A DNA stretch of 64,000 bases from an uncultured Bacteroidota bacterium (GTDB taxonomy: Bacteria > Bacteroidota > Bacteroidia > Flavobacteriales > Flavobacteriaceae): positions 248,001 to 312,000 of the forward strand of contig CACJNF010000001.1 in the NCBI GenBank assembly GCA_902594745.1, in the 5' to 3' direction. A model generated the notes under the pieces. The model was not told the origin of the DNA, ran no database searches, and worked only from the letters and a program-made list of their open reading frames with translations. Position numbers and translations under genes: made by a program. Shown one piece after another: positions 8,098 through 46,534 of the stretch. Every line of letters starts with the position of its first letter. Within the stretch, counting starts at the first letter, position 1.

Positions 8098-9132
8098 ATG
8101 GACACACACATTAAATACATGGAAAGATGTATTGAATTAGCATCGGAAGGAATTGGAAACACGTATCCAAACCCTATGGTTGGATGTGTAATTGTTCATA
8201 ACAATAAGATAATTGGTGAAGGTTCACATCAACAGTACGGGTGTAATCATGCTGAAGTTAATGCAATCAATAGCGTAGTTGATGAGAACATACTTAAAGA
8301 GTCAACATTATATGTTAACCTTGAACCGTGTAATCATTATGGAAAAACTCCACCTTGTACAAAGCTAATTCTTGAGAAAGGAATTAAGAATGTAATAATA
8401 GGATCAAAAGATCCTAACAGTCATGTTTTGGGAGGTGGAATCAGTACTCTTATTTCAAATGGTTGTAATGTAGAGTATGGAATTATGAAAGATGAGTGTG
8501 ATTTACTTAATAAAAGATTTTTTACATATCATAATCAAAAGAGGCCATACATTATATTGAAATGGGCGGAATCTAAAGATGGGTACATAAGTCCCAAGAA
8601 ATCTAATCGAAATAAAGGAGATATATTTTGGATTTCAAATGAAGAATCTAGGAAAATGTCTCACTATTTTAGGAGTCAAGAACATTCAATCTTAGTAGGA
8701 GTTCAGACTGTAATTGATGATGATCCAGAATTAACCACTAGGTTGGTTGAAGGCAATAATCCTAAAAGAATAGTTCTCGACCCAAATAATAGAATCCCAT
8801 TAAATTCAAAAGTATTATCTAATGAGTCAGAAACAATTATTTTTTCATCAACAAAAAATTTAGAATTAAATATAGATAATGAGGTTATTAATCAGTTTGA
8901 CCTTGATTCGATTCTAGAATCATTATTTAAACGTGGTATTCAGTCAATTATTGTAGAAGGAGGAGCATATACTATTCAAAAGTTCATAGATTCTGACAAA
9001 TGGGATTGTATTAGAATATTTAAGTCTGAAAAGAATCTTAAAGAAGGATTAGTTGCTCCAAAATATGAAATTGACAAATTAGAATTTAAATTGGTTGGAG
9101 ACAACAAGTTTTATGAAATTTTCAAAAACTAA
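8098..9132 (+). CDS. ribD: Bifunctional riboflavin biosynthesis deaminase/reductase RibD
   Basis: Deaminates and then reduces the pyrimidine intermediate of riboflavin synthesis. The 344-residue protein has an N-terminal zinc cytidine-deaminase-like domain (HAEVNAI near residue 50 and PCNHYGKTPPCT near 76, supplying the His/Glu and two Cys ligands) and a C-terminal reductase domain (ILKWAESKDGYISP; VGVQTVIDDDPELTTR; IVEGGAYTIQKF). Divergent from the GNAT-prmC-ligA unit; its last four bases overlap the convergent thioesterase gene. Other riboflavin genes are elsewhere, except ribBA at 59249. Confidence 0.96.
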   Translation: MDTHIKYMERCIELASEGIGNTYPNPMVGCVIVHNNKIIGEGSHQQYGCNHAEVNAINSVVDENILKESTLYVNLEPCNHYGKTPPCTKLILEKGIKNVIIGSKDPNSHVLGGGISTLISNGCNVEYGIMKDECDLLNKRFFTYHNQKRPYIILKWAESKDGYISPKKSNRNKGDIFWISNEESRKMSHYFRSQEHSILVGVQTVIDDDPELTTRLVEGNNPKRIVLDPNNRIPLNSKVLSNESETIIFSSTKNLELNIDNEVINQFDLDSILESLFKRGIQSIIVEGGAYTIQKFIDSDKWDCIRIFKSEKNLKEGLVAPKYEIDKLEFKLVGDNKFYEIFKN

Positions 9133-9521
9133 AATAATTCACTAATTAATTTAGGACACCTCTGCGGTTTCATTGATTTTGAATTTAGAAAGGCTAAAGT
9201 TGTAGCACCCTCTGTTGTAAGCTCATCATTTTGATTAAAAATTTGATACTTAAATTCAATAGTTGAAGTTGGCCTTTTATCACAAATTACTTTTACATAT
9301 AATGAATCACCAAAGAAAAGAGATTTGATAAATTTTATTTCACATTTAACAACAGGAAGTATTATATCACTTTCTTCAATTTTTTGGTATGGCATTTTTA
9401 GCTTTTCAAGCCACTCGATTCTTGCTAGTTCAAAAAATTTTAGATAATTACTATGATGAACTATCCGCATTTGATCAGTTTCACTATATCTAACTTTTAT
9501 TATGTCAGTTTTATATTCCAT
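9129..9521 (-). CDS. Acyl-CoA thioesterase, YbgC/4-hydroxybenzoyl-CoA type hotdog fold
   Basis: A 130-residue hotdog-fold thioesterase. The YbgC-like signature is clear: VRYSETDQMRIVHHSNYLKFF near the N-terminus, where the Asp in ETDQM corresponds to the catalytic acid, followed by the long hydrophobic helix ELARIEWL. The family hydrolyses short- or medium-chain acyl-CoA esters. In flavobacteria this gene commonly sits divergently next to dnaA, as here. It shares four bases with the end of ribD on the opposite strand. Confidence 0.88.
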   Translation of the reverse strand: MEYKTDIIKVRYSETDQMRIVHHSNYLKFFELARIEWLEKLKMPYQKIEESDIILPVVKCEIKFIKSLFFGDSLYVKVICDKRPTSTIEFKYQIFNQNDELTTEGATTLAFLNSKSMKPQRCPKLISELF

Positions 9522-25886: not shown

Positions 25887-26349
25887 AATAGTATCTTACA
25901 CAGATAAATATTCTAAATACTTCTATGATCTAAATCACGATTGGTTAAGTGAATTTTTTTATGTTGAAGAATACGATGAAAAGGTACTCAAAAACTGTAA
26001 GGAAGAGATAATTGATAAGGGAGGATATATTTTTTTTGCTCTTCATAAAACTGAAGTCGTTGGAACTATGGCATTAATTCCTAGAGAGAATAATGTATAT
26101 GAATTAAATAAAATGGCTGTAAAAAAAGATTTAAGAGGATATGGAATAGGTCATCAATTAATACAATTTATAATTGATTATTCTGTTGAGAATAATTTTA
26201 AATCAGTAATTCTTTATTCAAATACTGTTTTGAAGAATTCAATTCATCTTTACAATAAGTTTGGATTCAAAGAAATAGATAATCCAGATGCACCTTATAA
26301 AAGGAGTGATATAAAAATGGAATTAAAATTATCTAACCTTAGAAAATAA
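25876..26349 (+). CDS. GNAT family N-acetyltransferase
   Basis: A 157-residue acetyltransferase. [19 protein letters not shown] leads into [18 protein letters not shown], the acetyl-CoA-binding motif A, then [16 protein letters not shown], motif B. Substrate unknown. It starts inside the last codons of fumC and its end overlaps the convergent CPBP protease gene by 21 bases. Confidence 0.87.
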
Positions 26350-27231
26350 TTTTTCTTTCCAGTTTGTCCATGAATACTTCCTAGCAAATACTGCAAGAAG
26401 AATAGGAAAAACTATAAAAGGAGTAATCCAATCAGTAATACCGAGGCTAGGCTCTGAAATATCAATTAGAATTGATTCTGTCTGAAATACGGTCCAATCT
26501 GCTGTTACAAGTAATGCAGCTATGAGATTATTAGCAGCATGAAAACCTAAAGCTAGTTCAAGACCGTCATCCATAAGTGTCATAATTCCTAAAACGAAAC
26601 CAACTGTTATGTATAGAATTACAAACTCGTATCCAAGTGCTGTAATCTCAGGATTAGCTAGATGTAGAGAGCCAAAAACAGTAGATGTTAAGAAAAGTGC
26701 CATAAATCTACTATTCAACCAGTGACCAAAACCTTGCATTAAATAACCACGAAAAACAATCTCCTCAACACTAGTTTGAATAGGTATAAACAAAATTGCT
26801 ATTACTGCTAAAATTAAAAATTCTTTAACTTTAAAATTGAAAACGTAGTTTTCAGGATTAAGAGAATACTCTAAAAAAACAAAGGCAGAGACGACGGTCC
26901 CCCAGAGCATAAAAGAATACAAAACCCTTTCTAAATCAATTTTTTTTCTACTGGATAGAACTGACATAATAGGTAGGTCATGCAGTTTTTTTACAACTAA
27001 CCATATACCTGGTAAAACAAACGCAAAGCTTAGCAGTAATAGAAATAACCTAAGATTTGATGGAATTGTTTTAAAAATATCCATAGGGTCAGCATCAGGA
27101 CTAGGTAATTCTGAAGGAAAAAAAGGTATCATAGGTAACTGTCCTATAATAGAGAATAGTATCAGTATGAATGACCCTAAAATATAATACCAAAAGTTTT
27201 TTAGTTTATATGATTTATCCCAAAGAAACAT
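26329..27231 (-). CDS. CPBP-family intramembrane metalloprotease
   Basis: A 300-residue multi-pass membrane protein of the CAAX protease/bacteriocin-processing (Abi) family. The catalytic motifs are present: EEIVFRGYL (EExxxR, about 157-165), SLHLANPE (His) and GFHAANNL (HxxxN). Seven or eight hydrophobic segments surround them. It starts in a one-base overlap (TAATG) with the PAS-MenA gene, so the two are tightly coupled. The natural substrate is unknown; a link with prenylation by its neighbour would be speculation. Confidence 0.87.
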   Translation of the reverse strand: MFLWDKSYKLKNFWYYILGSFILILFSIIGQLPMIPFFPSELPSPDADPMDIFKTIPSNLRLFLLLLSFAFVLPGIWLVVKKLHDLPIMSVLSSRKKIDLERVLYSFMLWGTVVSAFVFLEYSLNPENYVFNFKVKEFLILAVIAILFIPIQTSVEEIVFRGYLMQGFGHWLNSRFMALFLTSTVFGSLHLANPEITALGYEFVILYITVGFVLGIMTLMDDGLELALGFHAANNLIAALLVTADWTVFQTESILIDISEPSLGITDWITPFIVFPILLAVFARKYSWTNWKEKLFSKVR

Positions 27232-28583
27232 TATTGAAAATTAGCTAAAATTATCATATAAATAAAGGAGAATAACATATGAAAATAAATAGTATGAATG
27301 TTATACTTGATCAAAGATCTACTATTGTAGTGTTTAAATAATCCAGCTATTAAGTAATATGAGTAAATCATTGTTACTGGTATTAGCAAATACAAGAATA
27401 AAGATCCTTGAGTTTGGTTGAGAATATTTTCTGCTATATAGTAAAGAGAGCCTACTGCTATAGCTAGGTTAAGTGCATAAATCCATCTTGATGATTTTTT
27501 ACCAAAAAGAACAACTAGATGATTTTTACCAACTTTTTTATCTGATGCATAGTCAGGGTATTGATTTATAAAAAGAATATTGGTTGTTAATAGTCCAATT
27601 GGAATTCCAAGTAAAATCAAATTGTAAAATTCATTTGAAAACAACTGAATTGTTTCATTAGCAATAGCAAATCCAGTACCTAATGTTAGTAATGGTCCAA
27701 AAGAGAGAAAAATTGAAAGTTCTCCTAAGCCATATCTAGAAGAAAGTCTTATTGGTTTTGCAGTATAAAAGTATCCAACCAGTACTCCAATCAAGGCAAT
27801 TATTGCAGCGTAATATGCGTTAAATGTGGATCCAGTATTTAGATAACTTGTATATAAAATACCAGCAGCAGTAAATAAACCTAAAATAAACATCACATTA
27901 GCTAGGCTTTTAGTACCCTTTAAAGTTATTAGACCAAGCTCTACTGCCCTACTACCTCCAGATAACTGAGCACCCTGGAGAATTGTTGAGTCCATTCCTG
28001 CATTAAAATATTCCGTGTTAGCCTCATCTGTACCATGTGTAACATCAAAGTAATCATTATACAAGTTTGAAAATAGATGAAAGAATAATATTCCAAAAGT
28101 AGTCAGAATAAGAGATATTGGGCTAAATAGATTATCTCCAATTCCTGCATAATAACATCCAATAGCAAAAACTGGGAATAAAGATGCAGAAGCAAAACCA
28201 ACTCTAGTAATTGCTACACCTTTTATGATTTTTGTAGTAAAGCTAATAGGTATATTGACTTTTTCATCAATTACTTCAGTAATACCACAGTATCCTGTTT
28301 GAGGGTTATTCTTTCCATTACCAAAATTTGGGGTTATCTTAATTTTGGCGGCAAATTTTGAACCGTCTTTTCTTATAAAATTGGTTTTAGTCGTATGTTC
28401 ACCTGTTTGATTTGCATCCTTTAACCAACCAAGAACATTTTGAAGAACGATTTCTCCAGGTGAAAAGATTGATACTCTTTTAATACCGACTAATTCATCA
28501 GAAGGATACCCAAACATTTTGACAGCACCGTCATTCATGTTCGTAATTAAGCCTTCCATGTCACAGATTATTACACTTTTCAT
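27231..28583 (-). CDS. PAS domain fused to a MenA/UbiA-type prenyltransferase
   Basis: One uninterrupted 450-residue frame. Residues about 1-108 form a PAS domain (IICDMEGLITNMNDGAVKMFGY, later FIRKDGSKFAAKIKI). Residues about 115-450 form a UbiA-fold membrane prenyltransferase with NLYNDYFDVTHGTD (first Asp motif, about 173-186), TAKPIRLSSRYGLGE (about 274-288) and NQYPDYASDKKVGK (second Asp motif, about 340-353), the pattern of MenA, which attaches the isoprenoid tail in menaquinone synthesis. Standard MenA is about 300 residues with no PAS. A MenI-like thioesterase is next door. A TANNTTTG element upstream suggests its own promoter. Both Asp motifs are intact, so activity is plausible. Confidence 0.88.
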   Translation of the reverse strand: MKSVIICDMEGLITNMNDGAVKMFGYPSDELVGIKRVSIFSPGEIVLQNVLGWLKDANQTGEHTTKTNFIRKDGSKFAAKIKITPNFGNGKNNPQTGYCGITEVIDEKVNIPISFTTKIIKGVAITRVGFASASLFPVFAIGCYYAGIGDNLFSPISLILTTFGILFFHLFSNLYNDYFDVTHGTDEANTEYFNAGMDSTILQGAQLSGGSRAVELGLITLKGTKSLANVMFILGLFTAAGILYTSYLNTGSTFNAYYAAIIALIGVLVGYFYTAKPIRLSSRYGLGELSIFLSFGPLLTLGTGFAIANETIQLFSNEFYNLILLGIPIGLLTTNILFINQYPDYASDKKVGKNHLVVLFGKKSSRWIYALNLAIAVGSLYYIAENILNQTQGSLFLYLLIPVTMIYSYYLIAGLFKHYNSRSLIKYNIHTIYFHMLFSFIYMIILANFQ

Positions 28584-28603: not shown

Positions 28604-28611
28604 CAAATTTA
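28604..28611 (-). promoter_or_regulatory. Putative -7 element for the PAS-MenA gene
   Basis: On the minus strand it reads TAAATTTG, 20 bases upstream of the PAS-MenA start and inside the 66-base gap behind the thioesterase gene. It would let the fusion gene be expressed apart from dnaK. Confidence 0.45.
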
Positions 28612-28649: not shown

Positions 28650-29075
28650 TTACTTATTAATTGTTAACGTGGTAAGTTTTGCAAATGAAATATCTTTTCC
28701 TTCTTGGTTTTTAATTGAAATTTTCCAGAGTTGCATTGTCCTTCCCATATGAATTGGTTCAGCTTTAGCAATAACGGTCCCTTCACTTATACCCCTAACA
28801 TGATTAATTGACAATTCAACACCTCTTAACATCTGGTCTTCTTTTTTTGAAAAAATTGCAGCAGCTGAACTTCCAACTGTTTCTGCTAAAGCAGCAGTAG
28901 CTCCACCATGCAGGACACCAGCAGGTTGATGAAGCTTAGGGGTAACATGCATTTCAGCTACTAAGAAGGTTTCACCAACATCTGTAAAATTTATATCTAG
29001 AGTTGAAACAAGAGTACCCTTACACCTATCATTAGCTTCTTTAAGAATAAACTTTTTTAATTTATTATCAATCAA
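28650..29075 (-). CDS. Hotdog-fold thioesterase, MenI/YdiI- or PaaI-like
   Basis: A 141-residue thioesterase. The key stretch is PAGVLHGGATAALAETVGSSAA, in which the Glu of LAET matches the catalytic Glu of YdiI, then MLRGVELSINHVRGISEG and GRTMQLWKISI, both close to E. coli YdiI (MenI), the DHNA-CoA thioesterase of menaquinone synthesis. Its position next to a MenA-type gene supports that role, though PaaI-type use on other aryl-CoA esters is possible. Only three bases separate it from the end of dnaK. Confidence 0.82.
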   Translation of the reverse strand: MIDNKLKKFILKEANDRCKGTLVSTLDINFTDVGETFLVAEMHVTPKLHQPAGVLHGGATAALAETVGSSAAAIFSKKEDQMLRGVELSINHVRGISEGTVIAKAEPIHMGRTMQLWKISIKNQEGKDISFAKLTTLTINK

Positions 29076-34272: not shown

Positions 34273-35433
34273 ATGAAAAATCAGGTTCAAATTTTTGATA
34301 CAACTTTAAGAGACGGTGAACAGGTTCCTGGTTGTAAACTTGATACTAAAAGTAAACTAATTTTAGCTGATAAAATTGATCAACTTGGGGTTGACATAAT
34401 TGAAGCAGGTTTTCCAATTTCAAGTCCTGGAGATTTTAAATCCGTTGTCGAAATTTCCAAGATTATTAAAAATGCATCTGTATGTGCACTAAGTAGAGCT
34501 AACGAAAAGGATATTGATGTTGCTGCTGAGTCATTAAAAAAAGCAAAGAAACCTAGAATTCATACCGGCATAGGAACATCTGAAGTTCATATTAAATATA
34601 AATTCAACTCAAATAAAGATTCAATAATTGATATAGCAAAAAAATCAGTTGCTCATGCAAGAAAATATGTTGATGATGTTGAATTTTATGCTGAAGATGC
34701 TGGCAGAACAGATAACGAATTTCTTGCAAAAGTATGTGAAGAAGTTATTAAGTCTGGAGCTACTGTTTTAAATATACCTGATACAACTGGCTATTGCTTA
34801 CCTAGTGAATATGGAGATAAAATTAAGTTTTTAATGAATAATGTTAAAGGGATTGAAAATGTTACAGTTTCATGTCACTGCCATAACGATCTCGGGCTAG
34901 CAACTGCTAACTCCATATATGGAGTTATTAATGGCGCAAGACAAATTGAGTGTACAGTTAATGGTATTGGAGAGAGAGCAGGAAACACATCTTTGGAAGA
35001 AGTTGTTATGATTTTAAGACAGCATACTGATTTGAACCTAGATACTAATATTAACTCCAAACTTCTAAATGAAACAAGCCAAAAAGTATCAGAACTTATG
35101 GGGATGCCTGTTCAACCAAACAAGGCTATAGTTGGATCTAATGCATTTGCTCACAGTTCTGGAATTCATCAAGATGGTGTTATTAAAAAAAGAGAAACAT
35201 ATGAAATAATTGACCCACTTGATGTTGGTGTAGATAAATCATCAATTGTACTGACAGCTAGGAGTGGTAGAGCTGCACTGGCATTTAGAATGAAACAGTA
35301 TGGCGTTAATCTAACGAAAAAAGAGCTAGATGATGTATATAATGAGTTTTTAATAGTAGCTGACAAAAAGAAAGAAGTAACAGACACAGATTTTCCTGAA
35401 ATTCTTCAGAATAAAAATATTAGTTATGGCTAA
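34273..35433 (+). CDS. leuA: 2-isopropylmalate synthase, short form without regulatory domain
   Basis: First step of leucine synthesis: acetyl-CoA plus 2-oxoisovalerate. The 386-residue protein has the DRE-TIM barrel motifs [12 protein letters not shown] (about 9-20), the metal-binding [16 protein letters not shown] (about 198-213) and [15 protein letters not shown]. It ends before the LeuA allosteric dimer domain, which makes usual LeuA about 510 residues; short forms are known in Bacteroidota. It overlaps leuC by eight bases and heads the leuA-leuC-leuD-leuA2-leuB operon. Confidence 0.93.
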
Positions 35434-36815: not shown

Positions 36816-37412
36816 ATGGCTTACGATAAATTTAACATTCTAAACAGCTCAGCTGTTCCACTTAATATCGATAATGTAGATACAGATCAAATTATCCCAG
36901 CAAGATTTTTGAAAGCAACTGAAAGAAAAGGGTTTGGTGAAAATCTCTTTAAAGATTGGAGATACAACTCAGATGGCACTACTATTGATTCATTTCCTTT
37001 AAACAATAAGGTTTACAGTGGGAAGATACTTATTGCGGGTAAAAATTTTGGGTGTGGATCTTCAAGAGAGCATGCAGTTTGGGCAATATATGATTACGGG
37101 TTTAGAGCTGTAGTATCTAGTTTCTTTGCTGATATATTTAAAAATAACTGTTTGAATATTGGTGTTCTTCCTGTTCAAGTTTCTGAAGAATTTTTAGTTG
37201 ATATTTTTTCCCAAATTGATTTAAATTCAAAAAGTAGCTTTGAGGTAAACCTGGAAATTCAAGAATTTAAGATTATTGAAACCGGAAAGTCTGAAAAGTT
37301 CAATATTAGCTCTTACAAAAAGAGCAACATGTCAAATGGTTTTGATGATATAGATTACCTTATAAATAAGAAGGAAGAAATATCTAAATTTGCCAATAAT
37401 TCACCAAACTAA
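36816..37412 (+). CDS. leuD: 3-isopropylmalate dehydratase small subunit
   Basis: Swivelling-domain partner of LeuC. The 198 residues include NVDTDQIIPARFLK (about 19-32), NFGCGSSREHAVWA (about 74-87) and the FKNNCLNIGVLPV stretch, all typical of LeuD. Its stop overlaps the start of the next gene by one base (TAATG). Confidence 0.98.
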   Translation: MAYDKFNILNSSAVPLNIDNVDTDQIIPARFLKATERKGFGENLFKDWRYNSDGTTIDSFPLNNKVYSGKILIAGKNFGCGSSREHAVWAIYDYGFRAVVSSFFADIFKNNCLNIGVLPVQVSEEFLVDIFSQIDLNSKSSFEVNLEIQEFKIIETGKSEKFNISSYKKSNMSNGFDDIDYLINKKEEISKFANNSPN

Positions 37413-38926
37413 TGCCCAAACATATCGAAATAATGGATACTACTCTGAGGGATGGAGAACAGACCTCTGGAGTATCATATTCACCTAAAGAGAAACTTAC
37501 AATAGCAAAACTTTTGTTAGATGATCTTAAAATTGATCGAATAGAAGTTGCCTCTGCAAGGGTATCTCAGGGAGAACTTAACTCAGTTAAGGAAATATCT
37601 AGCTGGGCAGAAAGTAATAGTAGAATAAATAGTATTGAAGTTTTAACATTTATTGATGAAGGAAAATCTATACAATGGCTATTAGACTCAGGATGTAAAG
37701 TGCAAAATCTTTTAACCAAAGGCTCATTAAATCATTTAAAGCACCAATTAAAGAAAACCCCTGATCAACATTTTAATGACATATCAAAAACTATTGATAT
37801 TGCAGAAAAAAATTCAATAACCACTAACATATATCTTGAAGATTGGAGTAATGGAATGAAGAATAGTAAAGATTATGTTATCGATTATTTGGATTTTTTA
37901 AAAACAAAAAACATCAAAAGAGTCTTACTTCCTGACACCCTAGGAATTTTAACTCATTTTGAAACCTATGAATTCATAAATGAAGTAAGAAATAAATATC
38001 CAAATTTTCATATAGACTTTCACGGACATAATGACTATGATTTAAGTGTTGGGAACTCATTAGAAGCTGTTAGAGCTGGCTGTAATGGCCTTCATCTTAC
38101 AATAAACGGTATGGGGGAAAGGGCTGGTAATACTCCCCTTTCAAGCGCTGTTGCAGCAATTAGAGACTTCTTACCAGAATACAAAATAAATGTTGAAGAG
38201 AAGAATTTGTTTAAAGCAAGTAAATTAATTTCAACATTTTCTGGACAAAGTGTATCATCTAATAAGCCAATAGTTGGCGAAAATGTATTTACGCAAACAG
38301 CTGGTGTTCACGCAGATGGTGATAATAAAAAAGATTTATACTTCAACAACTTGAATCCAAGTAGATTTGGCAGGAAAAGAAAATATGCTCTTGGCAAGAC
38401 TTCTGGAAAAGCTAATATTAAAAAGAACCTAGATGAATTAGGAATTAAACTAAATGATGATGAGCTCAGCGTTGTAACATCTAAAGTGATTGAATTAGGG
38501 GATAAAAAAGAGAAGGTTACAATTGAAGATCTTCCTTATATTATTAGTGATGTTCTTGAATATCCAACAAAAAAGAAAGACATAATAATTGAGTCTTATG
38601 TTTTAACCCATGCAAAGACTCTTAGACCATCTGCTTCTCTTTCATTAATTATTAATGATGAACTTTATCAAGAAAACTGCTCGGGTGATGGCCAATTTGA
38701 TGCATTTATGAATGCATTAAAAAAAATATACTCTAAAAGGGAAAAGGTACTTCCAAAATTAATTGATTATGCTGTTCGTATCCCCCCAGGTAGTGATTCA
38801 GATGCATTTTGTGAAACCACTATTACTTGGGATACTGGATCAAAAAAATTTAAAACAAGAGGGCTTGATACAGATCAAACAGTATCTGCTATCAAAGCAA
38901 CAGAGAAAATGTTAAATACTGAATAA
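37412..38926 (+). CDS. LeuA/CimA-family synthase with C-terminal regulatory domain
   Basis: A second DRE-TIM acyltransferase, 504 residues. Catalytic motifs: [13 protein letters not shown] (about 9-21), HIDFHGHNDYDLSVGNS (about 205-221) and NGMGERAGNTPLSS. Unlike the leuA at 34273 it carries the extra 110-120 residue domain that binds feedback inhibitors (from about ESYVLTHAKTLRPSA on). It could be a feedback-regulated isopropylmalate synthase or a citramalate synthase of the pyruvate route to isoleucine. Family motifs alone do not decide it. It lies between leuD and leuB. Confidence 0.88.
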   Translation: MPKHIEIMDTTLRDGEQTSGVSYSPKEKLTIAKLLLDDLKIDRIEVASARVSQGELNSVKEISSWAESNSRINSIEVLTFIDEGKSIQWLLDSGCKVQNLLTKGSLNHLKHQLKKTPDQHFNDISKTIDIAEKNSITTNIYLEDWSNGMKNSKDYVIDYLDFLKTKNIKRVLLPDTLGILTHFETYEFINEVRNKYPNFHIDFHGHNDYDLSVGNSLEAVRAGCNGLHLTINGMGERAGNTPLSSAVAAIRDFLPEYKINVEEKNLFKASKLISTFSGQSVSSNKPIVGENVFTQTAGVHADGDNKKDLYFNNLNPSRFGRKRKYALGKTSGKANIKKNLDELGIKLNDDELSVVTSKVIELGDKKEKVTIEDLPYIISDVLEYPTKKKDIIIESYVLTHAKTLRPSASLSLIINDELYQENCSGDGQFDAFMNALKKIYSKREKVLPKLIDYAVRIPPGSDSDAFCETTITWDTGSKKFKTRGLDTDQTVSAIKATEKMLNTE

Positions 38927-44839: not shown

Positions 44840-46534
44840 TTAATCTAGCCTAATATCTGAGACAGAAGCTCCAGAGGGAATCATTGGGAATACATTATCT
44901 TCTTTTTCCACACAAACTTCAAGAACATATGGTTTTTTGGACTTAATCATTCTCTCAACAGCAGGTTTTAAGTCTTTTCTATTATTTACCCTTTCAGAAT
45001 CGATATAATAGCCTTTAGCAATTGTAACAAAATCAGGGTTTATCATTTCAGTTGAGGCATATCTTTTATCAAAGAACAATTGTTGCCATTGTCTAACCAT
45101 CCCAAGAAAATCATTATTTAAAATAACAATCTTTACAGGAATTTGAAGTTGAAAAATTGTTCCAAGCTCTTGAATGGTCATTTGATAACCACCATCACCA
45201 ATTACTGCAACAACCTCTCTTTCCATTGCTCCCATTTTAGCTCCCATCGCAGCAGGAAGTGCAAATCCCATAGTACCAAGGCCTCCAGATGTAATATTAC
45301 TCTTTGATTTTATAAAGTTTGCATATCTACATGCTACCATTTGGTGCTGACCAACATCTGTGACTATAATCGCATCACCATTAGTAAATTCATTTATGGC
45401 AATAATTGACTCTCCCATAGTTAGTCCTTTTTTATTTGGACTTAAATCTGATTTAATTACTTTATCAAACTCAATTTTCATTAAATCATCAAATTTTGAA
45501 ATCCATTTTTTATGGGATCTTTTATCTATTTTGTTGGTAATCATTTGAAGAGATTCTTTACAGTTACCAATTACCGGTACATCAACCTTTATATTCTTAT
45601 CAACCTCTGCAGGATCAATTTCAAGATGTATAACTTTAGCTTGAGTTGCATATGTACTGGGGTCACCAGTAACACGATCATCAAATCTCATCCCAACAGC
45701 AATTAAAAGATCACACTTATTAGTCAGAACATTAGGTCCATAATTTCCATGCATACCCACCATACCAACATTTAACTCATGTGAAGTTGGTAAAGCTGAC
45801 AAACCAAGAATTGTCCATGCTGCAGGAATTCCACTTTTTTCAACAAAATTTTTAAATTCTTCTTCAGCGTTTCCTAGGATTACCCCTTGCCCCCATACAA
45901 TCAATGGCTTTTTTGCTTGATTAATGAGCTTTACAGCATGGTCTATCGAATTATCATTAACTTCGGGATAAGGAATATAGCTTCTAATTCCATTACATTT
46001 TTTATAATCATATTCAAAAAGCTCAAATTGCGCATCTTTGGTAATATCTATTAGTACAGGACCTGGTCTACCAGATTTTGCAATATAAAATGCTTTCGCA
46101 AAGATCTCAGGTATTTCTGATGCCTTAGTTATTTGATAATTCCATTTTGTAACTGGCATTGAAATCCCAATAATATCAGTTTCTTGAAAAGCATCTGAGC
46201 CTAAAAGATGAGATGGTACTTGACCAGTTATACATACAACAGGTGTTGAATCTATTTGAGCATCTGCAATACCAGTAACAAGATTAGTTGCACCAGGACC
46301 GGATGTAGCAATTGCAACCCCTACTCTACCAGAAGATCTTGCATATCCCTGAGCTGCATGAATAGCACCTTGCTCATGTCTAGCAAGAACATGTTTTAGC
46401 TTATCTTGAAATTTATAAAATTCATCATACACAGGCATTATAGCACCTCCAGGATATCCCCAGACAAGGTCTACTCCCTCGTTTAATAAACAATGGATTA
46501 CAGCTTCAGCACCACTAATTTTTTTATTTTTCAT
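44840..46534 (-). CDS. ilvB: Acetolactate synthase large (catalytic) subunit
   Basis: TPP enzyme that condenses pyruvate with pyruvate or 2-oxobutanoate. The 564-residue protein has the N-terminal PYR domain with catalytic Glu in RHEQGAIHAAQGYAR (about 54), the central FAD/cofactor domain, and the TPP motif GDGGYQMTIQELGT...NND near 445-475. All key residues are present. It is the second gene of the ilv operon. Confidence 0.97.
   Translation of the reverse strand: MKNKKISGAEAVIHCLLNEGVDLVWGYPGGAIMPVYDEFYKFQDKLKHVLARHEQGAIHAAQGYARSSGRVGVAIATSGPGATNLVTGIADAQIDSTPVVCITGQVPSHLLGSDAFQETDIIGISMPVTKWNYQITKASEIPEIFAKAFYIAKSGRPGPVLIDITKDAQFELFEYDYKKCNGIRSYIPYPEVNDNSIDHAVKLINQAKKPLIVWGQGVILGNAEEEFKNFVEKSGIPAAWTILGLSALPTSHELNVGMVGMHGNYGPNVLTNKCDLLIAVGMRFDDRVTGDPSTYATQAKVIHLEIDPAEVDKNIKVDVPVIGNCKESLQMITNKIDKRSHKKWISKFDDLMKIEFDKVIKSDLSPNKKGLTMGESIIAINEFTNGDAIIVTDVGQHQMVACRYANFIKSKSNITSGGLGTMGFALPAAMGAKMGAMEREVVAVIGDGGYQMTIQELGTIFQLQIPVKIVILNNDFLGMVRQWQQLFFDKRYASTEMINPDFVTIAKGYYIDSERVNNRKDLKPAVERMIKSKKPYVLEVCVEKEDNVFPMIPSGASVSDIRLD

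Follow-up and report, generated by a model that had tools for sequence, protein, structure and literature searches.

Within a 64,000-nucleotide stretch of an uncultured Flavobacteriaceae genome (assembly GCA_902594745.1, contig CACJNF010000001.1, positions 248,001 to 312,000; hereafter the window, to which coordinates refer unless a contig or locus is named), a single open frame on the minus strand (27231-28583, ATG start, 450 residues) joins a PAS sensor domain to a UbiA-fold prenyltransferase. The explanation that we favour, at a probability of about 0.5, is that this fusion displaced MenA, that synthesis of the quinone head group was then lost, and that the enzyme now prenylates a scavenged naphthoate, probably 1,4-dihydroxy-2-naphthoate (DHNA), under control of the PAS domain. 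The genus of this genome, represented by 25 genomes (G000-G024) among a close-relative set of 60 (the window's own and 59 relatives), is probably MED-G11, which the accessible text of PMC9122927 places in the NS5 marine group. Numbers with G, L and f are our labels for genomes, loci and families.

Head-group synthesis in the genus and its relatives

The original prediction was that the PAS domain could tune quinone supply; that it tunes the cell's own DHNA-to-menaquinone pathway was not supported. Curated models placed menD and menB below cut-off in all 25 genus genomes and PF02621 (MqnA/MqnD) was found in 0 of the 25; therefore no known head-group route was seen. The weak menD match of the window's own genome is a thiamine diphosphate enzyme (44843-46534), which we assign to acetolactate synthase because it adjoins ketol-acid reductoisomerase. 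At the fusion locus menF, menC and menE are absent, these three not having been searched for genome-wide. Among the 35 genomes of the close-relative set outside the genus, menD and menB were found in 26 and MqnA/MqnD in 6; the exceptions are two f6 carriers of the fusion (G041 and G054, menD and menB again below cut-off) and G051, a 300-kb genome with menB in which menD was not found.

A wider sample of 395 Flavobacteriales genomes gave a similar pattern. There, menB scored over cut-off in 286 genomes and PF02621 in 64, never together, and 45 genomes had neither; the fusion (E 1e-20 or better) was present in 19 of these 45. Conversely, the 28 carriers comprise 0 with menB, 9 with PF02621 and 19 with neither, an association between fusion and route absence with a Fisher's exact p of 8e-14, not corrected for kinship. 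The 26 genomes without menB, PF02621 or fusion include 15 of f16 (200-300 kb) and 11 others, from f6 (3), f15 (2), f11 (1), f7 (4) and f1 (1). That the fusion is simply a PAS-tuned MenA ending a complete menaquinone pathway of the cell's own, as first proposed, therefore seems improbable to us: its MenA-type first Asp motif, its place between genes that in relatives border men genes and the adjoining thioesterase related to the MenI and EntH models would fit, but menB and menD are below cut-off in the genus and in G041 and G054, the menD match appears to be acetolactate synthase, and no carrier in the order sample has menB.

We also checked the genomes for another menA, as the original prediction had left its existence open. 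Just two UbiA genes were found in the window's own genome, the fusion and a CtaB-like gene. Across the genus, two UbiA places were listed in 22 genomes (own included), only the fusion in G004 and G023, and three in G018; among the places listed, the second scores like the own CtaB. At the listed completeness, and with losses taken as independent, the probability that a separate menA was missed by chance in all 25 is ~1e-17. On these profile scores, the fusion is the sole candidate found in the genus genomes for prenylating a quinone.

Other quinone genes are present. The own genome encodes UbiE (contig C2, 133821-134489; 227.9 bits against a cut-off of 158), as well as ActA-F, CoxA, CoxB and CoxC as judged by eye (L156), with NrfD and 4Fe-4S domains matched by Pfam, and thus an apparent alternative complex III and cytochrome oxidase. 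Because these are kept, a quinol is probably needed. The genome (84% complete) therefore combines fusion and UbiE with no menD, menB or PF02621 found, and since no known pathway was found in it, its respiratory quinone may be completed from a precursor made by neighbours.

One could also suppose that the naphthoate head group comes from a third, so far unrecognised route, with the fusion as its prenyltransferase. Neither known route is seen in the 25 genus genomes and yet the own genome keeps quinol-oxidising genes, and the upstream thioesterase is retained in all 23 genus-like loci that reach that far; but no candidate genes were found, a degenerate MenE in a related locus (L027, below) looks like decay rather than replacement, and loss of head-group genes with DHNA from outside is known, from the accessible text of PMC9704088, in another Bacteroidota genus. 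We rate such a route as a long shot.

Proposed replacement of menA within a men cluster

The fusion lies in the order thioesterase-fusion-CPBP, followed by GNAT and fumC, with DnaK also upstream on the strand of the fusion. The thioesterase (28650-29075, minus strand; 4HBT 62.1 bits) is a hotdog protein over the TIGR00369 cut-off and, by synteny, the counterpart of the first gene in related men clusters. It had been likened to a DHNA-CoA thioesterase; its counterparts flank men genes in relatives, and the EntH and MenI models match it below their cut-offs. The CPBP (Rce1-like) membrane protein gene (26329-27231, minus strand; PF02517, 56.6 bits) has one base in common with the stop of the fusion, just as first noted.

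The genome collection supplied 25 fusion loci for comparison; of these, 24 are genus-like (69-97% identity) and one, L027, is 57% identical. CPBP follows the fusion in 24 of 24 genus-like loci. The thioesterase is upstream in 23 of the 23 that reach far enough (L010 starts too close), directly so in 21; in L011 and L019 the distance is ~3.4 kb and 1.3 kb, respectively. The same flanking genes occur in men clusters of relatives. Two Flavobacteriaceae loci, L110 and L114, read thioesterase-menF-menD-...-menA-...-menC-CPBP-menE-carboxylase; L112 reads menA-...-menC-CPBP-menE; and L120, from another family, reads thioesterase-menF-menD-menB-menA-menC-...-menE without CPBP, so that CPBP relatives lie between menC and menE in the first three and not in L120. 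Of these names, menD, menB and menA of L120 rest on NCBIfam cut-offs, menF of L120 and menC of L110 and L120 on Pfam domain and place, and the others on similarity or eye.

L027 looks like an intermediate. Its order is thioesterase-fusion-CPBP-MenE-carboxylase (carboxylase named by eye), with an intact fusion beside a MenE (8257-9348) that appears to be decaying: CSDNNSLSEKK stands in place of the P-loop motif TSGSTGxPK and KLEN in place of NSGG. With TIGR01923 this MenE scores 42 bits and that of L120 scores 108, both below the cut-off of 330. From the gene order of L110 and L114 set against that of the window, together with this degenerate MenE, we infer that the fusion probably took the place of an ordinary menA within a men cluster and that the head-group genes, including menB and menD, would then have decayed.

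A conserved frame with two domains

The fusion itself is well supported. Pfam matches both halves over cut-off: PAS_9 (PF13426) on residues 3-92 (36.1 bits against 27; profile positions 3-90 of 103) and UbiA (PF01040) on residues 137-411 (75.9 bits against 34.2), with TIGR00229 sensory_box adding 34.1 bits against 22.9; all 14 homologues picked for one alignment (A2) also match PAS_9 and UbiA (threshold 0.001 for PAS). The PAS domain covers residues 1-108 (28260-28583, minus strand) and the prenyltransferase domain residues 115-450 (27234-28241, minus strand). The latter has what marks the UbiA superfamily, namely the PF01040 profile, a helical fold and two Asp motifs, N176-D177-x2-D180-x5-D186 (28026-28058, minus strand) and P343-D344-x3-D348, PDYASD in the window (residues 343-348; 27540-27557, minus strand), both invariant in 56 of 56 aligned fusions. 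The claims that a complete PAS domain shares one uninterrupted frame with a UbiA domain, and that both Asp motifs are intact, thus stood. In the full predicted model (mean pLDDT, the predicted local distance difference test score, 70.5) the UbiA half is the confident part, and it matches UBIAD1 (8djk; template modelling (TM) score by target 0.77) and archaeal UbiA structures. Residues 1-110 are at 32-57 per block, and the PAS part predicted on its own (mean pLDDT 52.8) has a PAS-like order of strands and helices at low confidence.

An assembly artefact joining two genes was rejected, since the same fusion is found in 25 of 25 genus genomes (own and 24 of 24 others), stop-free in 24 with one broken copy (G018), and at full length in other families. 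The 28 order-sample carriers are the own genome, 9 of f6, 16 of f11 and 2 of f15; stop-free, full-length copies number 22, and the others are G129 (one stop), G106 (split between frames) and the partial copies of G133, G324, G229 and G249 (G249 with the PAS part only). Full-length fusions of other families in the order are 53-58% identical to that of the window, which excludes a PAS part limited to very close strains. In a phylum sample of 395 genomes, a profile of the fusion family (1e-25 or better) gave 65 matches, of which 11 run through both domains in a single frame (own, 8 of f39, 2 of f29), one is split over two contigs (G529, f39), and the remaining 53 begin at profile position 93 or later, that is, in the UbiA part. 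The database check for the architecture and its spread hence places the fusion, besides the genus, in three other Flavobacteriales families (f6, f11, f15) and two further families of the phylum (f39, f29). No plasmid relatives were found.

Some copies are irregular. The fusion is in several pieces in L024 (FRAM18_bin151), G018 and G106, accompanied by a split rluD, a CtaB with a stop and a broken UbiE, respectively; these are probably assembly indels, not genuine splitting. G006 has a second, decayed PAS start (contig C89, 18784-19026; 60% identical over residues 1-80, four stops) ~1 kb upstream of its intact fusion, apparently on the contig of L019, where the thioesterase is also farther off. 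In families f35 and f42, UbiA lies in longer frames of 443-511 residues (L199, 492-1850, of G467; G445, G494, G646, G716). In L199 the ~165 extra N-terminal residues have no Pfam match at 0.01 and look by eye like a flavin-binding split barrel; this may be a further fusion involving a MenA-like enzyme.

Conservation was counted over 46 of 48 fusion loci tried (L063, with no frame, and L145, with a short frame, were dropped). The PAS half averages 63.7% identity between the 24 genus and 22 other fusions, 79.4% among the 22 and 87.9% among the 24 genus fusions; the corresponding means for the UbiA half are 50.1%, 65.9% and 86.3%. Between families, the PAS half is more conserved than the enzyme half. 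Within the genus, the ratio of non-synonymous to synonymous substitution rates (dN/dS) is 0.068 for PAS and 0.060 for UbiA, calculated from 201 and 92 of 276 pairs, respectively, after removal of those with dS outside 0.1-1.5. The PAS half is under strong constraint. The alignment of 56 fusions, from f1, f6, f11, f39, f29 and L027 and with none from f15, has 29 invariant PAS residues, including C7, R36-V37-S38, S41-P42-G43, Q48-N49 and W53, and 56 invariant UbiA residues.

Enzyme class and points against salvage

In all 56 fusions the first Asp motif is spaced as DxxDxxxxxD, the form that the accessible text of PMC9235831 assigns to MenA, with DxxDxxxD assigned to E. coli UbiA; the second motif reads N-x-x-P-D-x3-D, where the MenA sequences compared have N-N-x-R-D.

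Several observations weigh against replacement of MenA followed by salvage, beginning with the enzyme itself. It misses the cut-off of every curated MenA model that it matched (NF004751, 69.4 against 264; TIGR02235, 64.9 against 225; TIGR00751, 53.1 against 102); the standalone MenA of L120 passes TIGR00751 with 297 bits against the same 102. In a tree of 70 sequences, in which the genus UbiA places other than fusions are represented by the second places of the own genome and G015 only, 19 fusions form one clade (95/94) outside the 12 standalone Flavobacteriales MenA (100/100). Among the 25 genus genomes UbiE is over cut-off in just 13, where completeness would predict 19.1 (P about 0.005), and among the 27 other carriers in 16; some genus members may therefore lack UbiE and either stop at demethylmenaquinone or rely on ready-made quinone. 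No men neighbours of the fusion were seen by eye in five f6/f11 loci (L118, L119, L159-L161), and without DHNA-CoA synthesis it is not obvious what the thioesterase would act on. In three f6 genomes (80-84% complete), and in some others, neither route nor the fusion was found, which argues against a strict link between fusion and loss, and the 9 of 28 carriers with PF02621 show that having the fusion does not imply loss of both routes. Finally, absence calls rest on incomplete genomes (own, 84% complete).

Because the UbiA half scores below all matched MenA cut-offs and sits in a separate clade, we file it, on these comparisons, as a UbiA-superfamily member that would work like MenA, not as MenA; of the earlier assignment to a MenA-type prenyltransferase, the first Asp motif stands and the family membership is not supported. 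An ancestral Flavobacteriales MenA with an added PAS domain was rejected on the same tree, where the fusion clade is apart from CtaB and MqnP-like proteins too. MqnP identity was likewise rejected: L205 and L206, taken for MqnP from their genomes without a family model, are far away in the tree, and PF02621 was not found in the genus. Four carriers with PF02621 (G081, G181, G196, G214) have an MqnP-like UbiA, 66-70% identical to L205, besides the fusion. In four without PF02621 (G097, G153, G162, G142) the corresponding gene is CtaB-like (43-46% to the own CtaB), and the UbiA proteins of 297-309 residues in f11 genomes, considered as MqnP, group with CtaB and were rejected. Standalone UbiA proteins of Bacillota (L028-L038, Dethiobacter and others) have the second motif N-Q-Y-P-D in common with the fusion of the window; in the four of these 11 loci inspected by eye (L028, L029, L030, L033), no men genes were seen.

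The missed cut-offs, the separate clade, the second motif and the presence of PF02621 in nine carriers would also suit an enzyme with another ring substrate, such as homogentisate, a precursor of benzoquinones or some secondary metabolite, and with respiration on imported or otherwise made quinone. In three f39 loci a homogentisate 1,2-dioxygenase gene, identified by Pfam in L198 and by eye in L194 and L195, lies ~4-7 kb from the fusion. We nevertheless think this unlikely, though it deserves attention, given that the first Asp motif is of MenA type, that the fusion is found where relatives have menA and other men genes, and that no further non-CtaB-like UbiA occurs in the genus among the places listed.

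A different way to accommodate patchy UbiE is remodelling as by UBIAD1, in which the fusion would re-prenylate menadione derived from scavenged phylloquinone or menaquinone: menadione already bears the methyl group, so that UbiE would be dispensable. UBIAD1 8djk has the top TM score by target (0.77) among the structure matches listed, but sequence similarity to UBIAD1 is weak (E 1.6e-4), and we hold this to be very improbable.

Proposed mechanism and significance

Under replacement followed by salvage, the PAS domain would be placed ahead of the first membrane helix and would tune activity in response to a ligand or to redox state, with the quinone pool or the aromatic acceptor as the likeliest signal. 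The enzyme would attach a prenyl tail to a scavenged DHNA-like acid, UbiE would complete the ring where present, and the quinol would feed alternative complex III and cytochrome oxidase.

A broader proposal, which we advance tentatively and regard as rather doubtful, is that PAS-UbiA proteins are a distinct, widespread family for regulated quinone supply independent of an own Men or futalosine pathway, that the conserved PAS domain binds a quinone or aromatic precursor and gates the enzyme, which would then be under direct control of its own product or substrate, and that several marine Flavobacteriales lineages thereby lost head-group synthesis more than once and became quinone auxotrophs of seawater.

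If salvage is correct, small-genome seawater bacteria would be unable to make the head group of their respiratory quinone and would depend on precursor from others, a vitamin-K-type dependency in the open sea with a simple cultivation test, the addition of DHNA or menaquinone. It would also mean that a quinone-making membrane enzyme has a built-in sensor, coupling quinone supply directly to a signal. In the literature searched, with most subscription journals outside its scope, we found neither a report of a PAS-UbiA fusion nor one describing these bacteria as quinone auxotrophs; two MED-G11 papers (PMC9122927 and PMC10734526) do not use the word 'quinone' in their main text.

Possible promoter element and other genes of the window

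Upstream of the fusion gene is TAAATTTG (28604-28611, minus strand), a possible Bacteroidota -7 promoter element. By our count TGTAAATTTG precedes the gene in 11 of the 15 aligned loci, in line with the suggestion that the fusion has its own promoter. The octamer by itself occurs 20 times in the window, barely more than the 14.7 expected by chance, and 13 of 100 shuffles contain at least 20; a sigma-70 scan of the upstream region was uninformative (3 promoter-like and 0 terminator-like hits, against 2.3 and 0.5 in shuffles). Elsewhere in the window, two HMGL/LeuA-type synthases (34273-35433 and 37412-38926) lie ~2 kb apart, with a LeuA_dimer match only in the second.

Comparison with known systems

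With MenA the fusion has in common the UbiA fold, the D-x2-D-x5-D first motif and a place among genes that flank men clusters; it differs in its N-terminal PAS domain, its own clade, its scores below cut-off and a genome without menB or menD over cut-off. UBIAD1, the vertebrate menaquinone-4 synthase, is alike in structure and only weakly so in sequence (scores above). UBIAD1 uses ready-made vitamin K forms and is not known to have a PAS domain. UbiA-297 of the ebo gene cluster is another UbiA-like enzyme of marine Flavobacteria, but it has a DxxDxxxD-type motif and quinoline acceptors, and a PAS domain is not mentioned in the accessible text (PMC9235831).

For the sensor half, the nearest parallels are the PAS domains of ArcB, BvgS and EvgS, which have been linked to quinones (PMC8174306, accessible text, as for the rest of this comparison). 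These too are cytoplasmic PAS domains of membrane proteins with a quinone as the proposed signal, and cysteines are implicated in ArcB and EvgS; in the fusion C7 is invariant. They are histidine kinases, whereas the output of the fusion would be a quinone-making enzyme, and the likeness seen is limited to the PAS fold; it makes a quinone-sensing PAS plausible in the fusion and no more.

For the salvage step, quinones act as growth factors among gut bacteria (PMC5738691, accessible text), and the closest case is Porphyromonas pasteri, for which DHNA is a growth factor. In the accessible text on this species (PMC9704088), menA and ubiE were found and menF, menD, menC, menH, menE and menB were not. 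Like the genome of the window, it belongs to the Bacteroidota and keeps a menA-type prenyltransferase and ubiE while head-group genes were not found, which for the genome of the window covers menD, menB and PF02621; unlike it, Porphyromonas pasteri is an oral species with a gene annotated as menA, whereas here the chain is of oxidase type and the enzyme is PAS-fused and not orthologous.

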